Below, piece by piece: positions 34,349 to 39,774 of a stretch of DNA of 64,000 nt; the first letter of the stretch is position 1, and every line of letters begins with the position of its first letter. The notes beneath the pieces were generated by a model that did no database searches, was not told the DNA's origin, and saw only the letters and a program-made list of their open reading frames with translations. The translations under genes were made by a program, and so were the position numbers. Source of the DNA: a virus; the IMG/VR virus record IMGVR_UViG_3300024239_000013, positions 97,142 through 161,141 of that record. The stretch is one strand, 5' to 3'.

Positions 34349-34633
34349 ATGAAAATTATCACTAAAATTGATGAGTTTTTGGCTACTAAAACAGCTAATC
34401 AGCCTTCAACTAAGCCTGCAGAGCCTATTACTATACCAAAAACCAGACCGGGGACTACACCAACCCCGACCCCATCTAGGCCAAGTCCAATCAGAAGAGA
34501 TAAACCTTCAGTTGAACCTGCTCCGAAGGCTAAGGTTAATGACGTTATGAAAAGATTCATGGAGGAACTTAGAAAAACTAAAGCACCAATAAATTTCAAT
34601 TTAAGCAAACTAAAAGAAAAGTATGAAGATTAA
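34349..34633 (+). CDS. proline-rich small protein
   Basis: 94 residues on the plus strand. Start MKIITKIDEFLATKTANQPS, then a Pro/Thr linker (PTPTPSRPSPIRRDKPSVEP) and a charged helix (DVMKRFMEELRKTKAP). It could be a scaffold or internal head component. The 50-bp gap to the divergent gene at 34298 must hold both promoters, but no clear box is seen. It overlaps the next gene by 11 bp. Confidence 0.6.
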   Translation: MKIITKIDEFLATKTANQPSTKPAEPITIPKTRPGTTPTPTPSRPSPIRRDKPSVEPAPKAKVNDVMKRFMEELRKTKAPINFNLSKLKEKYED

Positions 34634-36023
34634 TAAAATTAACCAAAGAATAGAGGAAGCATCTCTTAAAGGAAATCCTGCTATACCAGGAGAAGGTGGT
34701 AAAGAAGGGGGATATCTTTCTGATGTTGAAAGAAGAGCAGAAGAAAGAAATGCAGAGCTTGCTAGAAGACACGGAGGAGATATCCCTCGTTTTATGAGTT
34801 TCGTTTCACAAGCTAGACAAATACAATCTGGAAAGGAAAAAGAACTAGAAAAACTTGCAGAAAAAGCAATAAGAGCAATGTATGGAAGTATATTGGATGA
34901 GGTTGAACTTAAAATTAGATTTCCCAAACCTGGAGCAATTAAGGACATGATGGAGAAAGTCCAACCAGAGCCTATGGAAATGCCTCAATTGAAACAACTT
35001 GAAGATGCTGGCATTATTTCGGAAATACATAAGAGAAAGATTGCAAACAATATAACTCAAGGAGAAGCAAAGAACACGAAACTTATGCTAAATTTACCTG
35101 AAGTTGTTGATGGATTGGAGGAAATAATGGGGGGAGAAAATGGCAGAAAATACGTCGATTTGCTTAATAAGATAACAGAAATTGCTGGGTTTTTTGATTG
35201 GAACATACCAATGGAGGTTCAAAAAGAAATGTGGGCTAGAGATAAATCAGGATTCTCCGGATCTGTTAAAGTGGAATGGGAAACTCCGGAAGACTCTAAA
35301 GAGAACGAAGAGAATGCACAAGACATCCTAGATAAGTTAATGAATAGCTCAGATTTACCAGAAGACGACGTGGAAGATCTTTTTGATGAGACTAAACCAA
35401 CTATTCATGCATTGGGTACAGATTTTGCTATGCTGCTTCATGAAACGGTTAAAGGTATCTACGAACTAATCGCAGCTAATGCGATACCGGACGATGAGGA
35501 AGATGCAGAGATTATAATTTCAAATACGGATTCATTAGCAGATGAAATCGAGGATCTTAGATACGGTCCTGAAATTGCTGCAGATCTTAGAGATTTTATA
35601 AATGGATTTCCCGAATCTAACAAGGTTGAGAATTTAAGAGAACACGTTTTTGGTAAACTTATGTTATTACCAGCAAAACAATTCTTAGATACCATATTCT
35701 ATATTCTTAGCGACGATCCTAGAGGTAAACATGCTATTCAAAAACTAATCAATGAGGTTGTAGAAGAGATTAATGATTATAAGGATGCTATAAAAAATGG
35801 GGATTTCGAATCTCCATCTGATAATGAGCCGGAAGAAGAAGGAGAAGTAGATTACGAAAATATGTCAAAAAGAGATCTAATGGCTCTAATTGATCAGGCT
35901 TTAGATGCTGAAGATTATGATAGAGTAAGAGATCTTTCTCAATATTTAAAAGAATCGAAGCAGAGGGATCTTTTCGAAAGAGTCCATCAAAAATTAGGAT
36001 ATCCAGGTAAAAGAGATATTTAA
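34623..36023 (+). CDS. putative virion protein, acidic and helical
   Basis: 466 residues. It opens MKINKINQRIEEASLKGNPA and has a Gly-rich segment (IPGEGGKEGGYLSDVERRAE), long helices and three very acidic stretches (ETPEDSKENEENAQ; DDEEDAEIIIS; EPEEEGEVDYEN). No domain recognised. The acidic, DNA-mimic-like composition and cotranscription with the Pro-rich gene suggest an internal head or scaffold role; inference. The transcript ends at the bidirectional terminator 36050-36085. Confidence 0.6.
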   Translation: MKINKINQRIEEASLKGNPAIPGEGGKEGGYLSDVERRAEERNAELARRHGGDIPRFMSFVSQARQIQSGKEKELEKLAEKAIRAMYGSILDEVELKIRFPKPGAIKDMMEKVQPEPMEMPQLKQLEDAGIISEIHKRKIANNITQGEAKNTKLMLNLPEVVDGLEEIMGGENGRKYVDLLNKITEIAGFFDWNIPMEVQKEMWARDKSGFSGSVKVEWETPEDSKENEENAQDILDKLMNSSDLPEDDVEDLFDETKPTIHALGTDFAMLLHETVKGIYELIAANAIPDDEEDAEIIISNTDSLADEIEDLRYGPEIAADLRDFINGFPESNKVENLREHVFGKLMLLPAKQFLDTIFYILSDDPRGKHAIQKLINEVVEEINDYKDAIKNGDFESPSDNEPEEEGEVDYENMSKRDLMALIDQALDAEDYDRVRDLSQYLKESKQRDLFERVHQKLGYPGKRDI

Positions 36024-36049: not shown

Positions 36050-36085
36050 TAAAAAACCTAGAACTTTAAAATTCTAGGTTTTTTT
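36050..36085. terminator. bidirectional terminator between convergent genes
   Basis: 9-bp perfect stem AACCTAGAA/TTCTAGGTT, with an A run before and T7 after. It serves the plus-strand gene ending at 36023 and the minus-strand nadV gene ending at 36106. Confidence 0.85.
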
Positions 36086-36105: not shown

Positions 36106-37662
36106 CTATGAATTCTTTAAACTTTCTTTTAGACGATTTCTAACATCCTCTAGAGTTGTTCTATTTTTAAATTCACCATTTAGATATATTGTTTTTAGTT
36201 CACCTTGATTTTCTCTTTCCCAATCACAGTGATCGTATAATTCATATTTACCATCAACGTCATTTTTAAATACTGATAATAAACCGGTTGCAGATTTTTT
36301 AATACCATCATCTGTAATAGGATCTTTGAAGATTTCTCTTGCTTCTCCATTTACTTCTACGTAGGTTGCTTTCATTGCGAAACCGAAAGTATCACGTGTA
36401 TTGTACTGATATGTAAATGAACCAATTCCTAAAACAACGTTGGTTGATGCGAATCCTTTTTCTGCTAATCTTCTACAAATTTCTTCTGCTCTTTCTAATG
36501 TAATAGAATCTCCATAAATTGCACCGATATGAGGATCTAAAACCTTATATCCCTGCTCGTTCACCTCCCCGCCGAAAACATCCCATAAAAGTTCAATAAC
36601 ACCCTTAAATTCAGGTCTATCCCATTCGTCAACATCATCGTAATACTTAAATGCTTCTAGCGCTTTTGGATTGGTATTAAGTCCGCATAAGATATCTACT
36701 GGATCCCCACTATCAGGTCTAATTACCAATTTACCATCTCTGGATAGAATTTCATCCTTTAATTCTTTGACATGACTAGTACAAACTTTCCACAAATCCC
36801 ATGTATCCGATACCACAGATAGAATCCCAGTAGGATATGTCTTAATGAGTCTTCTAAAAGTTTCTAGTTCGTCTTCCTTTCCTCCTGCGCACATTACAGA
36901 ATGTTCAGTTGCATTTACACTTCCACAAACCATTCCTTCTGCATGATAGTATTTACGAGCTCCGTAAATAGTTGGTAAGCTATCAGATCCCAAGAAAGAA
37001 GTAAGGTGAGAAACACCGGAAGAGATTACAGCCTCTACCGAGTCCATCCCTCTCATAGAGAAATCGTGACCTTGCCAATCAACGAACCAAGATTTTTCGG
37101 CATCTGTTTTTTCTTGCCATTTTGTAAGAATCTTTCTGTATTGGTGTGCGATGGTTGCTGAAGTCATCGGTTTCCATAAAAGATTTGATAATATAGTTTC
37201 TAGATAATTGGTAACCCAATAGAACTTAGGGTGTGTGTTGTATATGGTTAAAACCGGAACCCTAATAGGAACTAAGCTACCTTCATCTATAGCTTTAACG
37301 TGGATTGGAAGATATCCAAGATCCCATAATTCCTGGAAGTGCGTTACATCGTAATCAGATCCCAGATACATTGAAAGTTCTTTTTTCATTTCTTCAACAA
37401 CTGGAACTAGATAAGTTGGATCGTTTTTTCTTTTAACTAACATAAGATCTCTTTCTAGACCGTGTTGGAAAAATTCTTTTTCAAAAGCTTCGTGTATTTG
37501 CATCATCGTCATCTGCTCTCCAAAGCTAACGACTGCGTCACAACCAGAAGGTGCATATTTATTACTTCTTGGAGTGAAATTAGAGTAAACTAGTTCTGTT
37601 CCTTCTGGGTATTGTTGATGGTGTCCTGTTTTATAACCATCTGTTAAAAGTAGTGGATTCAT
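36106..37662 (-). CDS. nadV: nicotinamide phosphoribosyltransferase (NadV/NAMPT) family
   Basis: 518 residues, close to NAMPT length. NPLLLTDGYKTGHHQQYPEG, YSNFTPRSNKY, GHDFSMRGMDSVEAVISSG, ATEHSVMCAGG, LVIRPDSGDPVDILCG and GIGSFTYQYNTRDTFGFAMK are the family's signatures, including the phosphate-binding RPDSGDP and GIGS loops. It joins nicotinamide to PRPP to make NMN. In phage NARP1 modules a homologue (Namat) instead uses ADP-ribose pyrophosphate to make NAD+ directly. The adjacent prs-like gene (18-bp gap) makes either activity possible. A terminator follows. Confidence 0.93.
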   Translation of the reverse strand: MNPLLLTDGYKTGHHQQYPEGTELVYSNFTPRSNKYAPSGCDAVVSFGEQMTMMQIHEAFEKEFFQHGLERDLMLVKRKNDPTYLVPVVEEMKKELSMYLGSDYDVTHFQELWDLGYLPIHVKAIDEGSLVPIRVPVLTIYNTHPKFYWVTNYLETILSNLLWKPMTSATIAHQYRKILTKWQEKTDAEKSWFVDWQGHDFSMRGMDSVEAVISSGVSHLTSFLGSDSLPTIYGARKYYHAEGMVCGSVNATEHSVMCAGGKEDELETFRRLIKTYPTGILSVVSDTWDLWKVCTSHVKELKDEILSRDGKLVIRPDSGDPVDILCGLNTNPKALEAFKYYDDVDEWDRPEFKGVIELLWDVFGGEVNEQGYKVLDPHIGAIYGDSITLERAEEICRRLAEKGFASTNVVLGIGSFTYQYNTRDTFGFAMKATYVEVNGEAREIFKDPITDDGIKKSATGLLSVFKNDVDGKYELYDHCDWERENQGELKTIYLNGEFKNRTTLEDVRNRLKESLKNS

Positions 37663-37680
37663 TATATTATTATTGTTTAA

Positions 37681-38559
37681 TTAAAATATGTTCATTTGTG
37701 TTACTTTACTTGTATCTCCTTTTAAATCTTCTAAGTCTGAATAAGAATTAGTTGTAAAAATTCCTTCGAAATTTTTATTTAGCTCATCGAACCCGGCTGA
37801 AAATATACCGTGCGTTACAACTAGATATATTTTAGCATCCTGATCTTTCTCTTTAATCGCTTTAGAAAGCTCGTTGAACGTTCTTCCCCCGTCACATATG
37901 TCATCTACGATAATGTAATTTAAACCCTTTTTAATAAGCTCTGGGATTTCTGTTTTAATAATCTTACCAATAGAAAGGTCTCTTATCTTATTAGCAGTAA
38001 TTATATTTTCTATTTGGAAATTCTGGGCTACGTCAAAAACTTTCTTATAAGCTCCAGAATCTGGACTGACTAGACATACTCTATCACGTGCACCGTTTCT
38101 ATTGTCAATTTTTGTTAGTGCAAATTTAACTAGTTCGTAATTATTAATCTTAGTGTAGTTTTCTAAGCATGCTTCTAAAACATCAGAATGAGGATCCGTT
38201 ACTGTAACTCTATTAAATCCTTGAGCATTGATAATTGGTGAAATAACTTTTTTAAGGTAATTTACACTTCCCATTTCAAATTTTCTATCACTTCTAGATC
38301 CAATAAAATACGGAACATAAAGATCCACTGATTTAAACCCAATTTCTTTTAAAGCTTGGTTTGCACATATGATAATCTCTAAATCTCTAAAGTTATTCAA
38401 TCTTGATTTTATCGTAACCGATTCCTCTCCGGCTATTTTCGGAAAAAGCATATTGGTAAATTTCACATTCTGTTGACCGTCCGGGAATTTAATTATTTCA
38501 TATTTTAAACTCCAAATGTCTTTTGGGTTTACTAAATTTAATATTGTTCGTGAAGACAT
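37681..38559 (-). CDS. prs: ribose-phosphate pyrophosphokinase family (PRPP or ADPR-PP synthetase)
   Basis: 292 residues, somewhat shorter than bacterial Prs. IIKFPDGQQNVKF opens it, VDLYVPYFIGSRSDRKFEMG is the ATP-binding flexible loop region, VTVTDPHSD is the catalytic His region, LVSPDSGAYKKVF follows, and NYIIVDDICDGGRTFNELSK is the PRPP-binding loop. It would supply PRPP to the NadV neighbour, or, as Adps in NARP1, pyrophosphorylate ADP-ribose. Telling the two apart needs comparison with biochemically tested members. Confidence 0.9.
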   Translation of the reverse strand: MSSRTILNLVNPKDIWSLKYEIIKFPDGQQNVKFTNMLFPKIAGEESVTIKSRLNNFRDLEIIICANQALKEIGFKSVDLYVPYFIGSRSDRKFEMGSVNYLKKVISPIINAQGFNRVTVTDPHSDVLEACLENYTKINNYELVKFALTKIDNRNGARDRVCLVSPDSGAYKKVFDVAQNFQIENIITANKIRDLSIGKIIKTEIPELIKKGLNYIIVDDICDGGRTFNELSKAIKEKDQDAKIYLVVTHGIFSAGFDELNKNFEGIFTTNSYSDLEDLKGDTSKVTQMNIF

Positions 38560-39240: not shown

Positions 39241-39436
39241 TTTTTTCTATTTTAGATTCATATTTTTTACATGACTTGATCCAAATTGGATCGTAGTTAT
39301 ATGGGAATAGAAATGACCATTGATTAACATGGATCTTTACGTCACCATCTTTAATCTCAGCATCACATTTAGAGTGTGCATCACCAATTAAATTTTTTCT
39401 ATATTTACAAGTGTAACATTTAGGCTTTTCGCTCAT
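39221..39436 (-). CDS. small Cys-rich protein, paralogue of 19652-19849
   Basis: 71 residues. [18 protein letters not shown] and [20 protein letters not shown] align with the array copy 20 kb away. It overlaps the exonuclease gene by 20 bp and the epimerase fragment by 4 bp. One zinc site is likely; role unknown. Confidence 0.65.
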
Positions 39437-39774
39437 CGCTTAATCTTTTGAAGTGTTCTAATGTCTTTTTTTAAACCTTCTGCTCTTTTAATCACTGGTT
39501 CCCATCCAAGTATATTTTTTGCCTTCGTTATGTCAGGATTTCTCTTTTTAGGATCGTCCTGCGGAAGAGATTTGTATTGAATCTTATTATAAGATCCTGT
39601 TAATTCTATGATCTCTTCAGCAAATTGTTTTATCGTTACTTCTTCCGGATTCCCTATATTCATTGGATAACTATAATCACTCAGAAGGAGTCTATAAATT
39701 CCCTCTACTAGATCATCTACGTAGCAAAAACTCCTGGTTTGATTTCCGTCACCAATTCTAAAATTTACCGTCAC
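39433..39774 (-). pseudogene. C-terminal fragment of a UDP-glucuronate decarboxylase-like SDR
   Basis: 113 residues matching only the last third of UXS-type NAD-dependent sugar epimerase/decarboxylases: [73 protein letters not shown]. The Rossmann NAD site and the catalytic Tyr-x-x-x-Lys are absent, and no remnant of them lies upstream. The frame opens with GTG inside the 3' end of the glucosaminidase gene. It is probably a deletion remnant, though a domain-only function cannot be excluded. Confidence 0.7.

Follow-up and report, generated by a model that had tools for sequence, protein, structure and literature searches.

The locus holds two neighbouring genes of the Prs and NAMPT families, referred to here as adps-like and namat-like, which are transcribed in that order and separated by 18 bp (Table 1). 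They lie in the window, by which we mean the whole 64,000-nucleotide stretch of DNA analysed, corresponding to positions 97142-161141 of a 319,334-base (319 kb) virus record. The sequence-only reading had described adjacent NAMPT and Prs homologues with this short gap, and coordinates, strand and family matches all agree with that description. The two genes are presumably co-transcribed, and a terminator-like hairpin follows the second of them; this 15-pair stem is a consensus match only, from a scan that returned 3 sites against 2.1 expected in shuffled sequence. The record's major capsid protein is of T4 type (Gp23, E = 2.5e-41), identifying a giant (jumbo), T4-like phage. Because 23 of the 31 phage records matched by this capsid protein bear the names of Bacteroidota hosts (Prevotella, Tenacibaculum, Chryseobacterium and Flavobacterium), at an identity of about 45% among the matches listed, the host is probably a member of the Bacteroidota. 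Elsewhere in the window, a 113-aa open reading frame at 39433-39774 resembles a nucleotide-sugar epimerase/dehydratase in the C-terminal portion alone and has the look of a gene remnant or of one fragment of a split gene.

Table 1. Features of the adps-like/namat-like locus, in window coordinates
Feature	Position	Strand	Description
Terminator-like hairpin with U tract	36051-36084	-	Just downstream of the namat-like gene; common to the convergent gene 34623-36023
namat-like gene	36106-37662	-	518 aa, NAMPT family; predicted nicotinamide ADP-ribose transferase; second of the pair
Selectivity-clamp helix GSFTYQYNTRD	36391-36423	-	Residues 414-424 of the namat-like protein
Selectivity-clamp loop PRSNKYAPSG	37543-37572	-	Residues 31-40 of the namat-like protein; K35 then Y36
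adps-like gene	37681-38559	-	292 aa, Prs family; predicted ADP-ribose pyrophosphate synthetase; first of the pair
Sugar-phosphate loop DDICDGGRTF	37876-37905	-	Residues 219-228 of the adps-like protein

The namat-like protein matched Pfam NAPRTase (3.6e-40) and NAMPT_N (1.5e-7), NCBIfam PRK09198 (561 bits) and PHROG 448 (8e-193). Namat is distinguished from NAMPT by an adenine-binding clamp, formed by a helix whose consensus, GSX-Phi-X-Phi-X-Phi-TRD, has aromatics as its third and seventh residues, and by a loop that adds a further stacking residue, either Arg or a Lys/Tyr followed by the stacking residue, the Lys-first arrangement having been described for Bas63 (PMC12774641). Both elements are present in the namat-like protein: its helix fits the consensus with both aromatics in place, F416 and Y420 being the counterparts of the residues that stack on adenine in SPbetaL1 Namat (F392 and Y396), and the loop of the namat-like protein supplies the stacking residue through K35 and Y36 (Lys then Trp in a Felixounavirus relative). 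The NAMPT-type catalytic core (F189, R192, D215, A242, R306, D308, D361 and R399' in SPbetaL1 numbering) is entirely identical, and all tabulated nicotinamide and ribose-phosphate contacts are kept. Across the 25 positions of the residue table only two differ from SPbetaL1 Namat (Arg40 to Lys, Ala362 to Ser), both known from other Namats, with Ser362 in the tested DyoEdafos enzyme and Lys40 plus an aromatic in a Felixounavirus. The seven NAMPT-type controls, by comparison, carry GGxL at the clamp helix (GG(G)L-type in ordinary NAMPTs). The best PDB matches by sequence were the Namat structures 9w5x/9w5w (E = 9e-152), and an AlphaFold2 model (pLDDT 87) again ranked these first by fold (TM 0.87 normalised to query length, at 48% identity), ahead of HdNadV and then human NAMPT. 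In a 43-row tree, which used all columns including the clamp, contained several long branches and had no HdNadV row, the Nampt and Namat sides separated at 100/99 and the window protein fell on the Namat side together with the tested enzymes, among viral contigs (100/99) that join a Flavobacteriia group (100/100).

Tree side alone cannot settle the substrate: the Haemophilus ducreyi enzyme HdNadV (PDB 9ke8, 9keo) produces NMN in cells (PMC6095924), yet it matches the namat-like protein better than human NAMPT does and is the nearest solved NMN-making enzyme. HdNadV shares the NAMPT family, 42% identity and the helix register with the namat-like protein, and its helix GAQTYQRNTRD retains the TYQ-NTRD frame, but Gln and Arg replace both adenine-stacking aromatics, and its loop PRSNEQAP has Glu-Gln where the namat-like protein has Lys and Tyr. 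Family position is therefore not enough, as HdNadV has the shared frame without the aromatics, and the namat-like protein passes a residue test that HdNadV fails.

The adps-like protein matched PHROG 619 (6e-65) and scored 94 bits against TIGR01251, under the cut-off of 113. It keeps the near-invariant Prs/Adps residues R89, D91, H124, D167, K191, R193, D219 and D220, and in an AlphaFold2 model (pLDDT 94.3) it adopts the Prs fold, identity being 16-21%, with no Adps structure among the PDB matches by sequence or fold. A 41-row tree separated it at 100/100 from seven housekeeping Prs, one from E. coli and six from Bacteroidota, and grouped it with the SPbetaL1 and DyoEdafos Adps that have been tested, to which it is 26-28% identical. 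It also differs from Prs in the sugar-phosphate loop, which in Prs holds ribose 5-phosphate. Housekeeping enzymes read DD(M/I)xDT(G/A)GTL there (for example DDMIDTGGTL), and the counterpart in the adps-like protein has no such Thr; loop position 6 is Thr in 7/7 housekeeping Prs and in 0/125 Adps-like proteins. A loop without this Thr would suit a substrate in which the 5-phosphate forms part of a pyrophosphate. The trees and pocket comparisons that the sequence-only reading had proposed thus both favoured its suggestion, each protein falling with tested Adps or Namat apart from housekeeping Prs and Nampt, with the adenine-clamp residues present and the ribose-5-phosphate loop Thr absent.

Among known systems, the NARP1 module of Bacillus phage SPbetaL1 (WIT26982.1, WIT26983.1; Namat PDB 9w5x, 9w5w) likewise consists of two adjacent genes with Adps first; its Namat has an identical clamp helix and the same nicotinamide and ribose-phosphate contacts at 50.7% identity, but differs in an Arg clamp loop instead of Lys then aromatic and in length (491 aa versus 518 aa), and the two Adps proteins share 28% identity. 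The module of Mycobacterium phage DyoEdafos (gp77/gp79) has an Adps with DDICDGGxTF and a Namat with GSFTYQHNTRD (48% Namat identity), and differs in having RyDEP gp78 between the pair, where our phage has no intervening gene; the RyR domain (PF02026) had no match in the record, a weak absence, as the search had no positive control. ValSX1 and CcrSwift, which combine NAMPT/NadV with NMNAT for classic salvage, share the NAMPT fold and catalytic core, yet their clamp-helix residues are GGGL-type, and the neighbouring gene is one for NMNAT or a cytidyltransferase rather than an Adps-like gene.

The same division runs through related viral loci. Of the 53 loci whose flanking DNA was long enough to judge, 47 had an Adps-like gene near the Namat-like gene, and this linkage was not built into the retrieval patterns; the pairing is not a matter of chance, because it recurs so widely. 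The clamp consensus was found in 84/84 viral and 80/80 bacterial Namat-like proteins, a uniformity that is partly built in because most sets were retrieved with patterns including part of the clamp motif; it was also present in all 11 loci retrieved by other patterns. NAMPT-type phage loci had a Prs-like gene in 0/4 cases and a cytidyltransferase or NMNAT gene in 3/4, partners of the Nampt-type gene being NMNAT, Nudix or cytidyltransferase genes. The 84 related phage loci also contained genes of DrHyd (38), macro-like (20), HAD-like (15) and NADAR (8) type, the macro-like and HAD-like names being based on visual inspection of sequence motifs, with no match in Pfam. Genes of DrHyd type (PF15891), macro-like, NADAR or HAD-like are sometimes found between the two NARP1 genes (L011 5867-6861, L012 4519-4956, L014 6541-7008, L116 and others), and a macro gene next to NARP1 was noted earlier in phage Adele (PMC12846349). 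No DrHyd, macro, HAD or NADAR gene was found in the window; macro (PF01661) and NADAR (PF08719) had no match in the phage's own genome, which was queried with individual families and proteins, and searches there for copies of the relatives' DrHyd and HAD neighbours, run without a positive control, found none.

Taken with the residue evidence, these comparisons make it very probable that the pair is a NARP1 module of Adps and Namat with the predicted chemistry. A defence NADase of the host, of TIR, SIR2 or SEFIR type, would split NAD+ into ADP-ribose and nicotinamide; Adps would pyrophosphorylate ADP-ribose at its free ribose, with ATP as the donor, to make ADPR-PP; and in the Namat step nicotinamide would displace the pyrophosphate of ADPR-PP and so form NAD+ directly, with no need for NMN or an NMN adenylyltransferase, restoring the NAD+ needed by the phage. 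Activity has been assayed by others for the pairs of SPbetaL1, Paenibacillus foliorum and DyoEdafos (PMC12774641, PMC13232231), and the substrate specificity and anti-defence effect of the present pair are inferred. Counter-defence as its main role is held with less confidence than the NARP1 assignment itself.

Both proteins belong to superfamilies, Prs and NAMPT, that would equally suit two-step salvage, in which the Prs-like protein would make PRPP, the NAMPT-like protein would turn it into NMN, and an NMN adenylyltransferase of phage or host would complete NAD+. PRPP activity is indeed retained by a tested Namat, which makes NMN from PRPP too in vitro (PMC12774641). The absence of an NMN adenylyltransferase, which the sequence-only reading had counted in favour of NARP1, holds for the window, where PF01467 has no match, but is weak as an argument, since the genome elsewhere encodes an NMNAT-like domain, in which the HxGH and SGTxxR motifs read GRFQPFHNGH and SGTDVR. 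This domain, the sole PF01467 match in the 319-kb record (201586-201723, outside the window and about 65 kb from the pair), forms the C-terminus of a 658-aa protein (L009 1096-3072; about 201-203 kb of the record) whose N-terminal half is RNA-ligase-like. An NMN adenylyltransferase encoded elsewhere had been named as a finding that would refute the NARP1 reading, and in part this is what the genome holds; however, the domain is unlinked to the pair, is fused to the RNA-ligase-like domain and scores 26-35 bits where NMNAT-model cut-offs are 127-181. We claim no NMN specificity for it, because its likeness to the NMNATs of Nampt-type loci is mostly limited to the nucleotide-binding motif GRFQPFHxGH, and its presence does not decide the matter, since the argument from the clamp holds with or without an NMNAT. 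Against salvage there is also the full adenine clamp, missing in PRPP-type NAMPTs and HdNadV, together with a Prs-like partner that falls outside the housekeeping clade and lacks the DT(G/A)GT loop Thr. On these grounds NARP1 fits better than Prs plus NadV, as first suggested, and salvage as the function of the pair is very improbable. PRPP use may still occur as a side reaction, and given the NMNAT-like domain and the in vitro PRPP activity of the tested Namat, salvage is possible as a side route. The record additionally encodes, outside the window at about 261 kb (L010 1378-1959), a 193-aa Nudix protein, weakly NudE-like, a possible ADP-compound hydrolase of the same phage.

No relatives in bacterial genomes came up in a single-sequence scan; a profile scan then gave at least 577. 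In the 80 best bacterial loci (L036-L115), from Flavobacteriia above all and from other Bacteroidota, an Adps-like match lay near the Namat-like gene in 46, and an NrtR-family regulator was found upstream in 38, on the same strand in 36 and within 300 bp of the first gene in 30. No NrtR-family regulator was found in the 84 viral loci. The pairs of Flavobacteriia (Maribacter, Tenacibaculum, Cellulophaga) encode a Namat 58-68% identical to ours with an identical or near-identical clamp, and in the nearest group the DGGRTF loop is found in the Adps-like protein as well. Gene order in that group is Namat then Adps, and the Flavobacteriia pairs further differ in the upstream NrtR-family regulator and, at times, in the presence of DrHyd, NADAR or HAD genes. 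Each of six Bacteroidota genomes checked has one housekeeping Prs and one Adps-like paralogue. In Aquimarina, Kordia and some Flavobacterium the Namat-like gene has no Adps-like neighbour (L075, L114 and similar loci), the genomes of L075 and L114 holding an Adps-like gene elsewhere (L195 and L197). ADP-ribose releases NrtR of other bacteria from DNA (PMC6800001, PMC12735969), and the NrtR-linked bacterial pair is plausibly an ADP-ribose-induced NAD+ recycling operon; an NAD role of these regulators is no more than possible, because part of the NrtR family in Bacteroidetes governs the use of arabinose instead (PMC4666351).

This chromosomal setting, with close relatives adjoining NrtR-family regulators, suggests a metabolic role in Flavobacteriia, and the phage pair could by the same token serve mainly to keep up NAD+ during a long jumbo-phage infection, drawing on ADP-ribose from any source, with counter-defence secondary. 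Such a view concerns role rather than chemistry and is compatible with the NARP1 reading. We consider it unlikely, as NAD-depleting defences are countered in cells by tested pairs (PMC12774641) and Nezha-bearing cells keep more NAD+ when the infecting ICP1 has the homologous NrsAB (PMC11559045). Somewhat better placed, but still tentative, is the idea that a single system has been exchanged, represented both by the NARP1 module of the phage and by the NrtR-linked Flavobacteriia pairs: in bacteria ADP-ribose would both lift NrtR repression and serve as substrate, and Bacteroidota phages may have taken the pair without the regulator, often with DrHyd, macro, NADAR or HAD genes possibly supplying ADP-ribose from signal molecules or conjugates.

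The NARP1 pathway is already known, and the phage pair represents a further well-supported instance of it, not a new kind. Four clamp positions separate Namat from NMN-making NadV, with HdNadV as the negative control, and a known counter-defence pathway is extended to a lineage of jumbo T4-like phages with probable Bacteroidota hosts, on evidence that reaches the level of single residues.
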